From Pseudanabaena sp. lw0831 (GTDB taxonomy: Bacteria > Cyanobacteriota > Cyanobacteriia > Pseudanabaenales > Pseudanabaenaceae): 37,791 bases of DNA. Positions within the stretch are counted from its first letter, which is position 1; each line of letters opens with the position of its first letter. Of this stretch, positions 5,708-12,492 are shown in pieces. A model generated the notes under the pieces. The model was not told the DNA's origin. It searched no databases and saw only the letters and a list, made by a program, of their open reading frames with translations. Made by a program: the position numbers and the translations under genes. The stretch spans positions 1 to 37,791 of the forward strand of contig NZ_BBJB01000036.1 in NCBI RefSeq assembly GCF_016584665.1. Reading direction: 5' to 3'.

Positions 5708-8700
5708 CTATAACCCGTTACCGATCGCAAAAAACGCCGACCAGTAGAAAGGATGATTGTGATTTGACGATTTAATTAGGGAAACTTGTGCTTTGCGTAA
5801 TGCCTCAGCTATGGGGACATCACCTTTTTTTAGTTCTCCATAAAATGCTTCCATGAGGGCTTGTGTACCTGCGTCATCGACTTTCCAGAGTGAGGCGATC
5901 GCGACTCTGGCTCCTGCCGCTTGCATTTGATAGCCTAAACCGAGAATCTCGACACCATTGCCTAACTTGCTACCTAGTCCTGACTGACAGGCACTCAGCA
6001 CCACAAGATCGACATTCTTTAAATCCCAGTCTTTAAGCTCACCAATCGTTACCTTCTCCCCATTACCAAACACAATAAAAGAATCTTCAGGTGTGCCAAC
6101 TAATAATTGACCATGAGTAGCAAGGTGCAAAATCGTATGGGAATTTGCTCTATCTGCTGTTACCTTCTTGGTAAAGTCCTTTTCGATCAGACTGGTAGTA
6201 TTAGGAAATAAGCTAGTAATTTTCTGGACTTCAGGAATTGAGGCAGGTAAGCCGTTAAAGCCTGAACGGGTTTCACCTCCTTTACCACCAAATGCTCCTG
6301 CGAAGATGTGAGGATTGGCGATCGCTTTGCTGTTAAAAGCAGTTAATGATTCGGCGGTGATGTTATTCACACGATATTTCTCGACTAGCCATTGTTTGCC
6401 ATCATAGAGACTCGCAAGGGGAATATAGCGCAGTTGTCCATCGGGAGCATAGATGATCGTGTTGATTTTGAGTTGATTGAGTTCGCTTTCAAAGGGTTTA
6501 ATCAGGATGTCATAGAGTTTCTGCGAGGTTTGTTTAACGTCTTCTGAGCCTGAATCTTGCAAGTCTGCGCGTAAAGCGATGATTAGCTGATTCAGTTGTT
6601 CGCGTTTGATGTTGACGGTGCGGCGTAGGGGTGGGATTTTGGTATTGAGAATGACTAGCTCTAGGCGATCGCTGAGAATGAGGGGATAGAGGAGAACGGC
6701 GTTAGGGAATTGCGATAGAAGATCTTTTTGTAATTTGCGGTATTTGGCAATATCAACATTTTGGTTGTCTTCGTTGCGGCGGAGTTCGGTGATCAGTTTT
6801 TTGATTTGGGGGCTGTCGAGAAAGGCGTTAAATTGTTTGTTTTGATCGCGTTCGGCTTGGACGAGTTGGGAGAGGCGTTGTTGTTCGGTTTCGTTCAGTT
6901 TGCCTTCACGGTCTTTTTGTTGCAGTTGGTTGAGTTCACCTGCAAGGGCGATGATGTTCTGCTCGGGGCGTTGGAGATCGACTCCTTGGGCGGTTTGATC
7001 GTTGCCGCGCACGGTGCGGAGGTAGTCGCTAAGTTCTTGGACTTTGAGTAAATCGAGGACTTGTTGGGCTTCGAGGATGCGGTCTTGTTTGAGCAAGAGA
7101 TCGGCAAGATCGCGATAGGAAGTTTCGACCGTAGATAGGTAAGATTTCTGTTCTGCTTGGCTTAATCCGCGAATATCTTTACGAATAGACTCTCGGACAT
7201 TGATCGATTGTTTGTAAAAGAGAATAGCTAATTCAGGCTGTTTTTTAATCGCCAGCAATTTACCCAGATTGCTAAGTACAGTACCCTCCCCATCGCGATC
7301 GCCGATTTCCCTTGCGATGGTTACCGCTTGCTGATATATATCCAGTGCTTGCTGGTGCTGTCCTCGATTGGCATAAGCTACACCCAGATTGCGGAGTGCC
7401 GTACCTTCGCTATCGCGATTTTTAATTTCTCTGGCGATCGCTAAAGCTTGTTGATAAATTTCAATCGCCTGCTCATTCTGCCCTAAATTACGATAAGTAT
7501 TCGCCAAATTGACTAGTACTCGACCTTTACTAGCAGTATCTTTGATTTTCTGCATTATCGTCAAAGCTTGCTGATGCATGACAATTGCCTTGTCAAATTG
7601 TTGGGAACTGTCATAGGCATTACCTAGATTGCTCAATACTGCTCCTTCACGGGCGATATCTTTGATTTCGCGTGCGATCGCTAATTCTTGCTGATATAGG
7701 GCAATTGCTTTGTCGAATTGACCTAACCTTTCGTAAGCCAGCCCCAAATTACTGAGTACGATGCCTTCCGCCATCCGAGCTTGGATTTCTGGCAGAATCA
7801 CATAATATCGCGGCGCAAAAAAACGAATTGCGATTTCATCCTGTCCTAAGCTGTCGTAAAGTCGATCTCTAGCTATATTACTGAGCAATCCTTCTCTATC
7901 ACGATGATCAATGCTGCGGGCGATCGCTAAAGATTGCTGATAAAGAGCGATCGCTTGTTCATATTTTCCTAACTTCAGATAAGCGTTACCGAGCTTAACC
8001 AAAATTCCTGCTTGAGCAATCCGATCTATCAGTTTGCGAGATAGCTCTAAGCCCTGCCGATAGAACTTAATAGCCTGTGTATATTGTCCTAAATTGCGAT
8101 AGCCATCACCTAAACTGATTGTGGCTATAGCTTGCCTAGTAGGATCTGGAGACATTCTCGAACTTACTAACATCTGCTGAAAAATCGCGATTGCTAGTTC
8201 ATATTTTCCTGCCTTCAGATAAACATTACCTAAATTATCTAGCAAGTTACGTTCTTGTTCCCGATCTTTCAGTTCCCTCGCAATTACCAAGGCTTGCTGA
8301 TACATGACAATGGAACGTTCATAGTCTCTAGAAAATTGGTAAGCTTGGGCGAGATTATAGATGACTCTTACTTGCTCTGTCAGGAGCTTTCTCTGCCGCA
8401 CGATCGCTAATTCTTGCTCATAAACTGCGATTATTTTTTGATATTGTCCTAAATCCGCATAAATAAGCACAAGTTCTCCGATAACTTCTCTCAAGTAGGC
8501 GTGAGGGAGATCGTTGATTGTCGTCCTGATTGCCAAAGCTTGTTCATAAAATATCGTGGCTTTCTCTGCTTGATTCAGAATTGAGTAAGCATGTCCTATG
8601 CGAAAAAGTGTTGTACTCTCATCAAGGGGAGCTATATTCTTAAGTTCTCTCATGATTAGCAATGACTGCTCATAAAACTTGATCGCTTTTTGGTACTCTT

Positions 8701-8974
8701 CAAGTGCGTCATAAGCCTTACCTAGACCATTCAATGAGTTACCTTCACCCTTGCGATCTTTAATCTCACGGTAAATTTGTAAAGCTTGCTCCCAAGCTTG
8801 TAATGCTTCCTGATATTTATTAGCTTGATATTGCTGATTTCCTTGTTTGTAAAGTCGTTCGGCTGCTGCTTTACGATCTTGGATAGATTGCGATCTCGCA
8901 GCATCGCATACTACCAGTTGCACTTGCCCACAAGATAAGACTGTCAAAAGTGCTATCTCCAAACCTATACGCAT
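5708..8974 (-). CDS. TPR-CHAT protein, second paralogue
   Basis: The product has 1088 residues from an ATG preceded by GAGGTGAGG. A leader (MRIGLEIALLTVLSCGQVQ) resembles a lipoprotein or Sec signal, with Cys at position 15. About 14 TPRs follow, more diverged than in its neighbour and including less regular units (SLGQDEIAI, SSQQFDKAI). A segment after the TPRs (IRKDIRGLSQAEQKSYL) is shared with the neighbour. A charged, Gln/Glu-rich helical stretch (roughly residues 675-745) is absent or much shorter in the neighbour. The CHAT domain shows the His motif HLATHGQ near residue 952 and the Cys motif VLSACQSG near 996, and ends WSAFFAIGNGL exactly like the neighbour. Both catalytic residues are present, so protease activity is plausible; target and trigger are unknown. 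Confidence 0.88.
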   Translation of the reverse strand: MRIGLEIALLTVLSCGQVQLVVCDAARSQSIQDRKAAAERLYKQGNQQYQANKYQEALQAWEQALQIYREIKDRKGEGNSLNGLGKAYDALEEYQKAIKFYEQSLLIMRELKNIAPLDESTTLFRIGHAYSILNQAEKATIFYEQALAIRTTINDLPHAYLREVIGELVLIYADLGQYQKIIAVYEQELAIVRQRKLLTEQVRVIYNLAQAYQFSRDYERSIVMYQQALVIARELKDREQERNLLDNLGNVYLKAGKYELAIAIFQQMLVSSRMSPDPTRQAIATISLGDGYRNLGQYTQAIKFYRQGLELSRKLIDRIAQAGILVKLGNAYLKLGKYEQAIALYQQSLAIARSIDHRDREGLLSNIARDRLYDSLGQDEIAIRFFAPRYYVILPEIQARMAEGIVLSNLGLAYERLGQFDKAIALYQQELAIAREIKDIAREGAVLSNLGNAYDSSQQFDKAIVMHQQALTIMQKIKDTASKGRVLVNLANTYRNLGQNEQAIEIYQQALAIAREIKNRDSEGTALRNLGVAYANRGQHQQALDIYQQAVTIAREIGDRDGEGTVLSNLGKLLAIKKQPELAILFYKQSINVRESIRKDIRGLSQAEQKSYLSTVETSYRDLADLLLKQDRILEAQQVLDLLKVQELSDYLRTVRGNDQTAQGVDLQRPEQNIIALAGELNQLQQKDREGKLNETEQQRLSQLVQAERDQNKQFNAFLDSPQIKKLITELRRNEDNQNVDIAKYRKLQKDLLSQFPNAVLLYPLILSDRLELVILNTKIPPLRRTVNIKREQLNQLIIALRADLQDSGSEDVKQTSQKLYDILIKPFESELNQLKINTIIYAPDGQLRYIPLASLYDGKQWLVEKYRVNNITAESLTAFNSKAIANPHIFAGAFGGKGGETRSGFNGLPASIPEVQKITSLFPNTTSLIEKDFTKKVTADRANSHTILHLATHGQLLVGTPEDSFIVFGNGEKVTIGELKDWDLKNVDLVVLSACQSGLGSKLGNGVEILGLGYQMQAAGARVAIASLWKVDDAGTQALMEAFYGELKKGDVPIAEALRKAQVSLIKSSNHNHPFYWSAFFAIGNGL

Positions 8975-9088: not shown

Positions 9089-10039
9089 TTAGATCTTTCC
9101 TGCTATTTGTAGAAGCGTCACTTCCCAAACTAGTCTCGGTTGCACATAACGGGCAATCAATTCCCGCGCTTTATCAAGATGTTGTAGAACTGACTTCGTT
9201 CTTTGCTGCTCCCAAAAATAATTTTGTAAATAATCAATCAGCCATAACTGCAAATCTACATCTAGTTCCTTGTTGATTTGTTTGGCGATCGCCATCGCAC
9301 TTTTCGCATCGTTAGGAATTTGGCGGACTAAGTTTAATAGCTCGGCAGGAATACTTTTGAAGCGATCGAATGACTCGATCGCATTACCCGCAGAACCTTG
9401 CGCCAGTGCCACCACTTCGGGCGGAATATCAGTATGACCTTCGCGAGTGAGGACTTCTTGCATTTGCGCTTGATTGAGCCTCGTAAAGGGAATGCGTTGG
9501 CAGCGCGAAACTAGCGTCGGCAAAATTGAGCCAGCATCGGGAACGATCAAAATAATTGTGGCGTAAAGAGGTTCTTCGAGGGTTTTGAGCAAACTGTTGG
9601 CGGCGGACTCAGCCATCGATTGCGCTTCTTCGAGGATCACGACCGATCGCTTGCTTTCAAGAGGCGATCGGCTGACAAATTCGCTAATTTCGCGCACTTG
9701 CTCGATCCTGATCTGGGGCAATGCACGACGCTTTAGCCCCGCTGTGTCTGCTTCCTTTGCCGTCAGCATTTTACCCTTATCTAAATAAGTCGGCTCCACC
9801 CATAGCAAATCGGGATGATTGCGATCGCTTAGCCGATTAGCCGACTTGCGATCGCCTAATAAAATCTCTGCAAATGCTGATGCTGTTTTGCTGCGTCCTA
9901 CACCACTCGCACCAGCAAATAAATAGGCTGGCGCAATGCGATCTCGTTTGATCGCAGCTTTTAATAGAGCGATCGCTTGACCTTGACCAACGACGAGATC
10001 GAATGGTGAATTTAGAGATGGATTTGGGGCAGTTACCAC
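9089..10039 (-). CDS. holB: DNA polymerase III subunit delta' (clamp-loader)
   Basis: The product has 316 residues and starts with GTG at 10039, which overlaps the upstream stop (TAGTG). It is a member of the AAA+ clamp-loader family that helps load the beta clamp onto primed DNA. Visible motifs are the P-loop-like GASGVGRSKT at residues 43-52, in which the Walker A lysine is replaced by Arg as in non-hydrolysing delta' subunits, the Walker-B-like VVILEEAQ, the core ANSLLKTLEEP, and LVSRCQRIPF around the sensor region. The zinc-binding cysteines found in many bacterial delta' proteins are absent between the P-loop and HPDLLWVEP. It is translationally coupled to the preceding membrane-anchored small gene. 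In many cyanobacteria tmk lies nearby, but not in this window. Confidence 0.93.
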   Translation of the reverse strand: MVTAPNPSLNSPFDLVVGQGQAIALLKAAIKRDRIAPAYLFAGASGVGRSKTASAFAEILLGDRKSANRLSDRNHPDLLWVEPTYLDKGKMLTAKEADTAGLKRRALPQIRIEQVREISEFVSRSPLESKRSVVILEEAQSMAESAANSLLKTLEEPLYATIILIVPDAGSILPTLVSRCQRIPFTRLNQAQMQEVLTREGHTDIPPEVVALAQGSAGNAIESFDRFKSIPAELLNLVRQIPNDAKSAMAIAKQINKELDVDLQLWLIDYLQNYFWEQQRTKSVLQHLDKARELIARYVQPRLVWEVTLLQIAGKI

Positions 10040-10584
10040 TAGTCATTCCACAAATGTTGTGATGCTCTCCTTGAGTCATGGGATCTTAAACCTACTGGAA
10101 AACGACGATCTCGATTTCCAGAATCGAGATCGTCAGCATTGCGCCGTCTTAGCCACGATCGGATCGCCTCATCAATAATTGCCGCAGGGTTATCAGTTAT
10201 TTCCAATAGTTCAGTCAGCAACTCTGGTGCAATGTCCACTTTATAGGAAAGATCGATCTCAGGAAGGTTTGCTTGATTCGCAGTCGGATCTGGTGAAGAT
10301 GCCGAAGCTTGATCGCTATGATCGGTCAGTTTTCCTTCAAGACTTATTTCATTATTAGCTAGGTTATTCACTGCATCTTTTGCGTTATTAGGTGAACTTG
10401 GGGCGATCGCAGCAGATTTAATTTCATTTAGGTTGTTTTGATTACTAACATCTTGCTTATCTAAAGTTAGCTTGCGCCAAATTAGTTTGCTCAAATTGAC
10501 GATCGTAAACATTATTAGAATAAGTCCGAACTGAAATAGTCCAATAATCAAGATCAGCCTTTCTTTTAGCCAAAATTCATACAT
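10039..10584 (-). CDS. Membrane-anchored small protein with an RHH-like C-terminal helix pair
   Basis: The product has 181 residues. The N-terminus (residues about 9-33, ERLILIIGLFQFGLILIMFT) is a single hydrophobic membrane segment. It is followed by a Ser/Asn/Ala-rich low-complexity linker of about 75 residues and a C-terminal segment VDIAPELLTELLEIT...AIIDEAIRSWLRRR. That segment resembles the two helices of ribbon-helix-helix antitoxin-type regulators, though no convincing beta strand is seen. The protein ends in W-N-D, as does the next gene upstream, and the helical segments of the two are clearly related. The stop overlaps the holB GTG by one base, so it is probably translated together with holB. 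No established function is recognised. Confidence 0.8.
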   Translation of the reverse strand: MYEFWLKERLILIIGLFQFGLILIMFTIVNLSKLIWRKLTLDKQDVSNQNNLNEIKSAAIAPSSPNNAKDAVNNLANNEISLEGKLTDHSDQASASSPDPTANQANLPEIDLSYKVDIAPELLTELLEITDNPAAIIDEAIRSWLRRRNADDLDSGNRDRRFPVGLRSHDSRRASQHLWND

Positions 10585-10628
10585 AATTTCTGGGTTCTAC
10601 ATAGTACCGATAGCTTTCCTGATTGATC

Positions 10629-10883
10629 CTAATCATTCCACTCGCCGCGAGGAGGCACAACTGGATTCATCGTCAGGGGGCGCGAGCGATCGGCTTCTTT
10701 GATCGCCCGACGCTGCAACCATTGACGGATCGCTGTATCGATCGCCTGTTCAGGATCGTTAGTTACTTCACCTAGCTCAGCAAGTAAAGCAGGGTCGATG
10801 TCTATACTTTTTAGCACCTCATTAAATACTGCTTCATTAGCCGATTGGTTTATTTGCGGTACGTTGGCGTTATCTTCTGGCAT
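10629..10883 (-). CDS. Small protein with RHH-like helix pair, paralogue of the adjacent gene
   Basis: The product has 84 residues. An acidic N-terminus is followed by IDIDPALLAELGEVT and AIDTAIRQWLQRR, the same pattern as the C-terminal region of the protein at 10039-10584, and it ends EWND. It lacks the membrane segment. The genes lie 44 bp apart on the same strand, so a tandem duplication with later gain or loss of the anchor is likely. The helix pattern is reminiscent of CopG/Arc-type regulators, but DNA binding is only a guess. It probably forms an operon with the next gene and holB. Confidence 0.75.
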   Translation of the reverse strand: MPEDNANVPQINQSANEAVFNEVLKSIDIDPALLAELGEVTNDPEQAIDTAIRQWLQRRAIKEADRSRPLTMNPVVPPRGEWND

Positions 10884-10983
10884 AAGGAATATTTAAATTA
10901 ACTGGCACTATCCAGATTTTACCTAGATTTGTTACCTCCTGAATGTACAGTGCGATCGCAATCTCTCCAAACCCAAAAACAAA

Positions 10984-11117: not shown

Positions 11118-11158
11118 CAGAATCTGTACCGCCCGCGTAGCGGGCGGTACAGATTCTG
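11118..11158. repeat. Perfect 19-bp stem-loop with GTA loop upstream of hisS
   Basis: Arms at 11118-11136 and 11140-11158 are exactly complementary around GTA. The inner part CGCCCGCGTAGCGGGCG nearly matches the tip of the hairpin at 903-961, although the outer stems differ. It sits about 70 bp before the hisS ATG, so it may be an mRNA leader structure, or a small mobile palindrome. Confidence 0.8.
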
Positions 11159-11226
11159 GAGTTTTATATTTAATTTTGCCTAGCTACTTAACATCACAGT
11201 CTCATGTAAATCACCCGTTAGTATCC

Positions 11227-12492
11227 ATGTCTTCACTTCAGGTCACACGCGGCACTCGCGACATCCTCGCTCCCGAAATTTATTACTGGCAGCAGTTAGA
11301 GACAACTGCGCGTCAAATTCTCAGTCAAGCCGCCTATACCGAGATTCGTACACCCATTTTTGAAGCAACTGAGCTATTTGCAAGGGGTATCGGTGAAGCC
11401 ACAGATATTGTCGGTAAAGAAATGTACAGCTTTAGCGATCGCGGCGATCGTTCTTTGACTTTGAGACCTGAAGGCACGGCAGGTGTGGCACGATCATATA
11501 TTGAAAATAAATTATTTGCCCAAGGTGGCGTACAGCGACTCTGGTACATGGGCGCAATGTTTCGCTATGAGCGTCCGCAAGCCGGTCGCCAACGCCAATT
11601 TCATCAGTTAGGTGTCGAAGTAATAGGCAGCGCCGATCCGCGTGCTGATGCTGAAGCGATCGCGATCGCCAGTGATTTTTTACAATCAGTTGGTTTAAAA
11701 GATTTAGTCGTCGATCTTAATTCGGTCGGCAGTGCTGAAGATCGGGTTGCTTATCGTCAAGCCTTGGTGGACTATTTCACACCCTTTGTTGAGGAAATTG
11801 GTGCTGATTCACGCGATCGCCTGACTCGCAATCCTCTCAGAATTCTCGATAGCAAGGACAAACGCACTCAAGAAATTTCTCAAGATGCGCCCAGTATTCT
11901 CGATTATTTAAGCCCTGAGTCGCAACAACATTTCGAGAAAGTCCAAAGCCTATTAGCCGATCTCAATATTGCCTATCGGATCAATCCTCGTCTTGTGCGT
12001 GGCTTGGACTACTACACCCGTACTGCCTTTGAGATTCAATCTAATCTCCTCGGCGCACAGTCGGCAGTCTGTGGTGGTGGACGTTACGATCGCCTAATTT
12101 CGGAGTTAGGCGGCGCGGATGTACCTGCGATCGGTTGGGCGATCGGTTTAGAGCGTCTGGTCATTCTCATGCAACAGGTTGCCGAACAAAAACAAGCAGC
12201 GATCGACTTTTACATTATTTCTCGTGGTGAACAAGCTGAAGCTAAGGCTTTATCCATTGCTCAACTATTCCGTAAAGCAGGATTTACAGTAGAACTCGAT
12301 CTCAGTGGTGCAAAGTTTGATAAACAATTCAAACGGGCTAGTAATGCTAATGCGAAAGCTGCCATCGTCATCGGTGATAGCGAAATCGAAGCAGGACAAG
12401 TTCAAATCAAATGGCTAGAGTCTGGCGATCAAGAAGCACTAGCGATCGCCGATCTCAGCGACAGTTTTGAGGCACTGCGACAAAAGTTGTAG
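11227..12492 (+). CDS. hisS: Histidyl-tRNA synthetase
   Basis: Charges tRNA-His with histidine; class II aminoacyl-tRNA synthetase. I choose the ATG at 11227 (421 residues, MSSLQVTRGTRDILAPE) because the family begins with this RGTRD segment. An in-frame TTG at 11176 would add 17 unconserved residues. Motif 2 appears as MFRYERPQAGRQRQFHQLG, the histidine-specific motif as LVRGLDYYTRTAFEI, and motif 3 as GGGRYDRL followed by AIGWAIGLERL. The C-terminal anticodon-binding domain is complete. It is convergent with the response-regulator gene, with 64 bp between the stops, and is probably monocistronic. Confidence 0.96.
   Translation: MSSLQVTRGTRDILAPEIYYWQQLETTARQILSQAAYTEIRTPIFEATELFARGIGEATDIVGKEMYSFSDRGDRSLTLRPEGTAGVARSYIENKLFAQGGVQRLWYMGAMFRYERPQAGRQRQFHQLGVEVIGSADPRADAEAIAIASDFLQSVGLKDLVVDLNSVGSAEDRVAYRQALVDYFTPFVEEIGADSRDRLTRNPLRILDSKDKRTQEISQDAPSILDYLSPESQQHFEKVQSLLADLNIAYRINPRLVRGLDYYTRTAFEIQSNLLGAQSAVCGGGRYDRLISELGGADVPAIGWAIGLERLVILMQQVAEQKQAAIDFYIISRGEQAEAKALSIAQLFRKAGFTVELDLSGAKFDKQFKRASNANAKAAIVIGDSEIEAGQVQIKWLESGDQEALAIADLSDSFEALRQKL

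Follow-up and report, generated by a model that had tools for sequence, protein, structure and literature searches.

The window analysed here is a stretch of 37,791 nucleotides from Pseudanabaena sp. lw0831 (NCBI RefSeq assembly GCF_016584665.1, contig NZ_BBJB01000036.1, positions 1 to 37,791 of the forward strand). Two small genes lie in it directly ahead of holB, the first for a soluble protein and the second for a paralogue with a predicted membrane anchor (hereafter the soluble and the anchored copy), and hisS is divergent on their upstream side (table 1). A 1088-aa TPR-CHAT protein is encoded on the same strand as holB and just downstream of it (5708–8974). No match to Rfam was found in the window.

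Table 1. Features of the locus (positions in the window; aa, amino acids).
Feature	Position	Strand	Details and basis
Soluble copy, RHH-derived helix pair and GEWND tail	10629..10883	−	84 aa; ORF, relatives, purifying selection
Soluble copy, residues 26–60, remnant strand and helix pair	10704..10808	−	AlphaFold2 helices 31–40 and 44–65
Soluble copy, residues 73–84, conserved C-terminal tail NPVVPPRGEWND	10632..10667	−	alignment
Anchored paralogue	10039..10584	−	181 aa, ends HLWND
Anchored copy, residues 11–29, predicted membrane helix	10498..10554	−	hydropathy, model
Anchored copy, residues 113–150, helix pair homologous to soluble copy	10135..10248	−	BLASTP, model, hhalign
Anchored copy, terminal W-N-D	10042..10050	−	alignment
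Conserved promoter-like block upstream of soluble copy ACAAATCTAGGTAAAATCT	10914..10932	−	tandem AATCT 11 nt apart
holB (DNA polymerase III delta prime), GTG start	9089..10039	−	NCBIfam NF005638, E 1.7e-120
hisS, divergent	11176..12492	+	first ORF start TTG

The two small proteins were compared by BLASTP in a single comparison and were found to be 42% identical over 60 residues (E 2e-11). A preliminary description of this DNA, made from the letters alone, had read the pair as a duplication with a common helix pair and a common W-N-D end (GEWND in the soluble and HLWND in the anchored protein), and this reading was borne out. Its further claim, that one copy is soluble and the other has a membrane anchor and a linker, agrees with hydropathy and model: the anchored copy has a single hydrophobic segment (residues 11–29, mean Kyte–Doolittle 2.72) and the soluble copy none, and the model of the anchored copy contains a helix at residues 3–50, with pLDDT about 90 at residues 11–29, and a low-confidence linker. 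The two copies were the only clear family members in the genome of the window (third match, E 0.25). Neither protein matched a curated family above cut-off; no NCBIfam entry was found, and the kinship with Pfam families was weak. The soluble protein is identical in the record of Pseudanabaena sp. UWO311, of the same genus. Its dN/dS was about 0 to 0.07 in six comparisons (nonsynonymous changes 0 to 8.5 versus synonymous 9 to 32), and that of the anchored copy about 0.2 in three; the first 40 residues of the anchored copy taken alone gave 0.8 to 0.96, on very few changes, and no constraint was visible there. Together with the recurrence of both genes in the genus and their common W-N-D end, these values mark the pair as more than a chance pattern.

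With up to 2 mismatches allowed, the genome contains the block upstream of the soluble copy only once, and 23 of 24 genus genomes have its core TCTNGGTA ahead of the soluble gene. The block is probably the promoter of the operon and might serve as an operator; a sigma-70 scan found no promoter at the block. The true start of hisS is likely the ATG at 11227. A 41-nt perfect hairpin upstream of hisS (11118–11158) is a dispersed palindromic repeat, for which 22 matches at up to 3 mismatches were counted in 19 places of the genome (reversed pattern, 0).

Both copies were present in 24 of 26 genomes of the genus, that of the window included. The other two (G006 and G009) contained neither the locus nor a holB match, which pointed to assembly gaps. 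The gene was further found in each of the nine genomes sampled from the rest of the family (G026–G034) and in 16 of 23 genomes of other families; 24 of the 31 cyanobacterial genera in this sample of relatives carry it. A profile search of the phylum (386 genomes) gave matches in 111, of which 108 were strong and reached the last profile position and 3 were weak and of another kind. Extra weak RHH matches in some genomes were fetched as possible members and turned out to be proteins of other RHH families. No match to the family came from phage, plasmid or viral collections, and searches of open PubMed Central papers showed nothing on it or on PPRGEWND, the query GEWND bringing only unrelated papers. 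On these sequence comparisons the soluble protein is a member of an unnamed cyanobacterial RHH family. Synechocystis ssl1326, given in the available part of one report as a possible CopG-family gene induced by salt (PMC8670252), could be a further member. Two records call for comment: the gene and a downstream kinase occur on a metagenome-bin contig labelled Chloroflexaceae bacterium (L152), probably a misbinned cyanobacterial contig, and on two scaffolds of Baaleninema simplex PCC 7105 (L142 and L147) the gene lies within 10,053 bases of identical sequence, which reflect either a large duplication of recent date or a repeat in the assembly.

The C-terminal tail was analysed on 63 distinct strong sequences, taken from genome-search loci and region fetches (E < 1e-15 in the first set and < 1e-8 in the second). 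All 63 ended in GEWND, a count that leaves out 80 loci found partly by a tail-containing pattern and that was obtained with a search profile which includes the tail and so favours tailed matches. In this set the mean fraction of the top residue was 1.0 over the last five positions, 0.93 over the last twelve and 0.66 elsewhere. As an independent check, a DNA pattern for E-W-N-D-stop was run against the genomes of 58 relatives, where it matched 60 times and the reversed pattern 15 times. Of the 60, 49 were the ends of the 49 family genes (coordinates compared by eye), seven others, when fetched, lay in very short frames or in an unrelated 68-residue frame and were implausible gene ends, and the last four had TGG in the stop position. 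Thirty codon combinations encode the tail among 126 distinct soluble-copy gene ends; because the codons vary synonymously, the constraint is on the protein. All 19 Pseudanabaenaceae members examined end in GEWND. The anchored copies have exchanged the residues ahead of W-N-D and retain W-N-D itself in 17 of the 17 aligned, which makes these three residues the part that is kept; even a gapped copy (L018/L101) still has the WND end, and in one metagenome assembly (L108) the frame shifts before the tail and leaves it out of frame. The tail is thus the most conserved part of the protein, more fixed than the DNA-binding domain. It could, for instance, be a degradation signal or a part of the fold.

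Ancestry of the helix pair was examined with the Pfam RHH_1 profile (PF01402). All 19 members picked from the 49 outside Pseudanabaenaceae matched at E up to 1, at least one of them (L128, 21.6 bits) above the gathering score of 20.5 bits; under a stricter limit of E 0.1 the profile was matched by 47 of 71 members. The best of these matches were in register over positions 2–37 of 39, that is, over the strand and both helices. None of the 19 Pseudanabaenaceae members matched (L102 and L104 being placed in this family by similarity), and none of 17 anchored copies. The failure in Pseudanabaenaceae is explained by a change in the strand before the helices; prolines occur in the ribbon strand in several genera. 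The kinship of the window's family with RHH proteins follows from its homology to the other members, the hhalign probability being 99.7 for the Pseudanabaenaceae set against the outside set and 96.8 for the anchored copies against the RHH set. An AlphaFold2 monomer of the soluble copy contained both helices (pLDDT near 77; mean of the model, 63) and no strand, which would be expected of a monomer. Foldseek and VIA-align with the monomer model returned nothing useful, such searches being uninformative for a small dimer, and a sequence search of the PDB gave weak CopG-type matches at most (best E 0.21). Since the monomer model is modest and Foldseek gave no match, the case for a dimer comes from family membership. 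The RHH fold suggested in the preliminary description is therefore supported outside Pseudanabaenaceae, and in the window's own family the ribbon looks eroded while the helix pair and the tail stay. Compared with the RHH_1/CopG-type superfamily at large, members outside Pseudanabaenaceae have in common with it the strand and two helices, and the family differs in its invariant C-terminal GEWND, in one membrane-anchored paralogue and in that the window's family has no model match.

The anchored copies formed one clade (support 100/100). Among the 17 aligned, 12 had one hydrophobic segment and five (L085, L090, L095, L096 and L097) had two or three. In a sister genus (L100, genome G032) the gene for a 115-aa membrane protein starts 21 nt after the RHH gene, and this protein belongs to the SdpI family (PF13630, E 4.7e-14, 52.7 bits versus a cut-off of 28.2). 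The five anchored copies with two or three segments, which branch early, aligned with it over 100–111 positions at 26–30% identity (E 9e-13 to 1e-9), so that the predicted anchor of these early branches is traceable by homology to an SdpI-like protein; the PF13630 profile itself matched none of the five, and nothing in the genome of the window. A stand-alone SdpI gene was present in 1 of 33 genomes tested, that of L100. The SdpI-type membrane gene is likely the source of the anchor. The membrane helix of the window's copy aligns by eye with the first membrane helix of the SdpI-family protein, and from this alignment we infer its descent from the SdpI-like part. The simplest history would be that an SdpI-type gene was fused to a second RHH-plus-tail module and that the product was then cut to its first helix in most lineages.

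Base 10039 is common to the TAG of the anchored copy and the GTG of holB, the one-base overlap that had been described for the window. Across the genus the order soluble copy, anchored copy, holB was kept in 24 of 24 genomes with the locus, and holB started at −1 (11 genomes), +2 (8), −8 (3) or +3 (2) nt relative to the end of the anchored stop codon, as measured to the first usable start, several genomes having more than one candidate. The tight spacing is thus kept in the genus and the one-base overlap is not; translational coupling of the anchored copy with holB is plausible on this arrangement. AAT encodes the Asn of W-N-D in every one of the 23 distinct gene ends of anchored copies, soluble copies using both AAT and AAC, and in three genomes an ATG formed at this AAT codon may be the holB start. 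In the neighbourhood set (99 loci) holB adjoined the gene in all 17 genus loci and in 0 of the other 82. In the 12 non-genus genomes with a located holB the gene lay on a different contig or hundreds of kilobases away. The gene upstream of holB was there a dTMP kinase in L187 (TIGR00041), with a similar frame by eye in L189, L191 and L192, and other genes in the remaining genomes. The link to holB that had been proposed accordingly stands inside the genus and fails as a general one: other lineages have one copy, located away from holB. Scattered homologues unlinked to holB and variable C-termini had been named as the findings that would speak against it; the former were found outside the genus, and for the C-termini the opposite was found.

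Outside the genus a different neighbourhood was observed. The 82 loci (a few of them repeated, such as L142 and L147 with 10 kb of identical sequence) had a codirectional downstream member of the kinase cluster in 68 and a divergent upstream lepA in 51, neighbour genes being called by greedy ORF picking, so that '+1' and '+2' ranks are approximate. One lepA was confirmed (TIGR01393), and the domains of the neighbouring kinase were GAF, HisKA and HATPase. Among the matches listed, 85 of the 108 genomes with a strong match had a codirectional kinase downstream of the gene, at a distance of 94 to 2465 nt (median 270 nt between matches). The profile used for this linkage is the N-terminal half of the kinase, and some of the 85 linked kinases are partial, the farthest lying at 2465 nt; the count used part of the kinase matches, the others being further matches in the same genomes or matches to GAF only. 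The remaining 23 genomes, in which every candidate was scored in 20 and also in G000, and six candidates each in G002 and G007, comprised one with a full-length orthologue elsewhere (G155) and 22 that showed none. Four genomes among the matches listed had a kinase match without the gene, and in G045 and G046 lepA and the kinase are still neighbours and the gene between them was not found. Pseudanabaenaceae lack the kinase: in 14 of 14 genomes the best matches were partial and reached E 8.6e-42 at most, compared with 1e-122 or lower in two control genomes; most of the profile was covered by a few weak matches that lie in proteins of 1400 aa. The tail persists where the kinase is lacking, as all 108 strong matches reach the last profile position. 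Four members outside Pseudanabaenaceae (L173, L174, L179 and L180) are without the kinase and have an intact ribbon, so that loss of the kinase and loss of the ribbon may be unconnected.

Several explanations were weighed against these data. The small proteins could be accessories of the clamp loader, their synthesis tied to that of delta prime and perhaps binding it, as the preliminary description had it; gene order in 24 of 24 genus genomes and a holB start −8 to +3 nt from the anchored stop agree with this, but the family is at home beside lepA and the kinase, with no holB link in the 12 non-genus genomes or the 82 non-genus neighbourhoods, and we consider such a role quite improbable. That home neighbourhood would fit an old pair of kinase and regulator, the small protein being the output of the GAF histidine kinase: a codirectional kinase follows in 85 of 108 genomes (among the matches listed) and in 68 of 82 non-genus loci, lepA is divergent in 51 of 82, and in G045 and G046 both flanking genes are present and no gene of the family was found between them. 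Against this, the analysis found no phospho-acceptor domain, and in 22 of the 108 genomes gene and tail persist although a full-length orthologue of the kinase is missing, which leaves the pairing unlikely, if somewhat less so than a role at the clamp loader. An RHH domain with a flexible C-terminal tail is the usual layout of a type II antitoxin, and CcdA has a flexible tail ending in tryptophan. A stand-alone antitoxin, its tail neutralising a toxin encoded elsewhere, would fit this layout and the weak matches to CcdA (29 of 71 members), BrnA (15 of 71) and other antitoxin families. The CcdA match (PF07362) covers the RHH half only, about positions 1–40 of 71 and the N-terminal half of the profile, and, unlike CcdA, the family has no recognised toxin next door (45 commonest neighbour clusters of the 99 loci, judged by eye) and did not turn up on mobile elements, with no match in phage, plasmid or viral collections; this reading appears very improbable.

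The SdpI connection suggests a further alternative. In Bacillus subtilis, according to the available part of one report, SdpI sequesters the autorepressor SdpR at the membrane (PMC1626106), and the order of a small regulator gene followed by a membrane-protein gene, as far as the accessible portions of PMC1626106 and PMC6818787 describe it, is that seen in L100. Here the membrane part differs in being fused to a second copy of the regulator, of which the window's version keeps one membrane helix. The regulators differ as well, SdpR being of the ArsR type and the present one of the RHH type. By analogy, the soluble protein would repress its own operon, holB included, and the SdpI-derived paralogue would titrate it in mixed dimers on a signal. 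The RHH ancestry, the SdpI-like source of the anchor with its precedent, and an upstream block that is unique in the window's genome and has its core in 23 of 24 genus genomes are in favour, and the SdpI link and the conserved block keep this alternative close. Yet the ribbon that would contact DNA looks eroded (RHH_1 in 0 of 19 versus 19 of 19, with prolines in several genera), the block may be merely a promoter, and the fixed tail is left unexplained. Autorepression with titration is therefore regarded as possible, if on the unlikely side.

The explanation that we consider best, and that is put forward tentatively as somewhat short of an even chance, is a scaffold for a docking peptide with an SdpI-type membrane fusion. 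The tail is kept where kinase, intact ribbon and neighbourhood have been lost and, in the paralogue, where its own upstream half has gone, and the simplest reading of this is a docking peptide with a partner elsewhere in the cell. The helix pair would form a dimer that presents two flexible C-terminal peptides ending in PPRGEWND-COOH, and W-N-D with its free carboxylate would be the irreducible part, docking onto a conserved cyanobacterial protein other than the neighbouring kinase. In an ancestor of Pseudanabaena a second module would have been joined to an SdpI-type membrane protein and have settled between the soluble copy and holB; in most lineages, the window's among them, the membrane part would later have been reduced to one helix and a linker. 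The anchored copy may keep this module membrane-bound: it could pair with the soluble copy in mixed dimers, or it could offer the docking peptide there. The sequestration of SdpR by SdpI in Bacillus subtilis would be a precedent in kind. As the downstream gene of the operon, holB would gain steady translation from the close spacing, with no bearing on function. The full statement, namely a W-N-D-COOH docking motif read by a core cyanobacterial protein and placed on an RHH scaffold that has dispensed with kinase and ribbon in Pseudanabaenaceae and is displayed at the membrane by an SdpI-type fusion in Pseudanabaena, is more doubtful and is offered as a possibility well below even. A C-terminus more fixed than the DNA-binding domain predicts a partner that recognises W-N-D with its end free; as a natural experiment, the fusion in Pseudanabaena shows which part of the tail is needed. 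The identity of the partner would explain the conserved lepA–RHH–kinase neighbourhood, and the gene-fusion route from a soluble regulator to the membrane. Worth keeping in any case is an unnamed cyanobacterial RHH family whose C-terminus is fixed, whose ancestral neighbour is a kinase and of which one copy has been fused to a membrane part of SdpI type.

Other cyanobacterial RHH proteins were compared with the family. The 'all' rather than 'asl' in the name all0854 (TrcR of Anabaena PCC 7120) implies, by the naming convention, a longer protein. Like the present family, TrcR is a cyanobacterial RHH regulator absent from some picocyanobacteria, and in the available part of the report it has phage homologues (PMC10272220), a difference from the family, two proteins of which found no phage match. 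An assignment to TrcR was set aside, as the operator published in that part of the report does not lie upstream of the family: in a scan of 176 upstream regions (20 new and 156 earlier, repeated genomes included) the 18 operator positions showed between 4 and 10 mismatches, usually 7 to 9, with the best value of 4 in one region. A second group (L197–L207 and L209), MazE-like by our own naming and with an RHH domain that gives weak matches to the profile of the family (E about 1e-7 to 1e-9), differs in having longer acidic tails, or none that was read, and none of its members ends in WND; the tail type is YxNRSQxDIxxExxW in most. Another RHH-related cyanobacterial protein (L052, L196 and L208) ends in DETGWLV and so provides a second W-containing C-terminus on an RHH domain.
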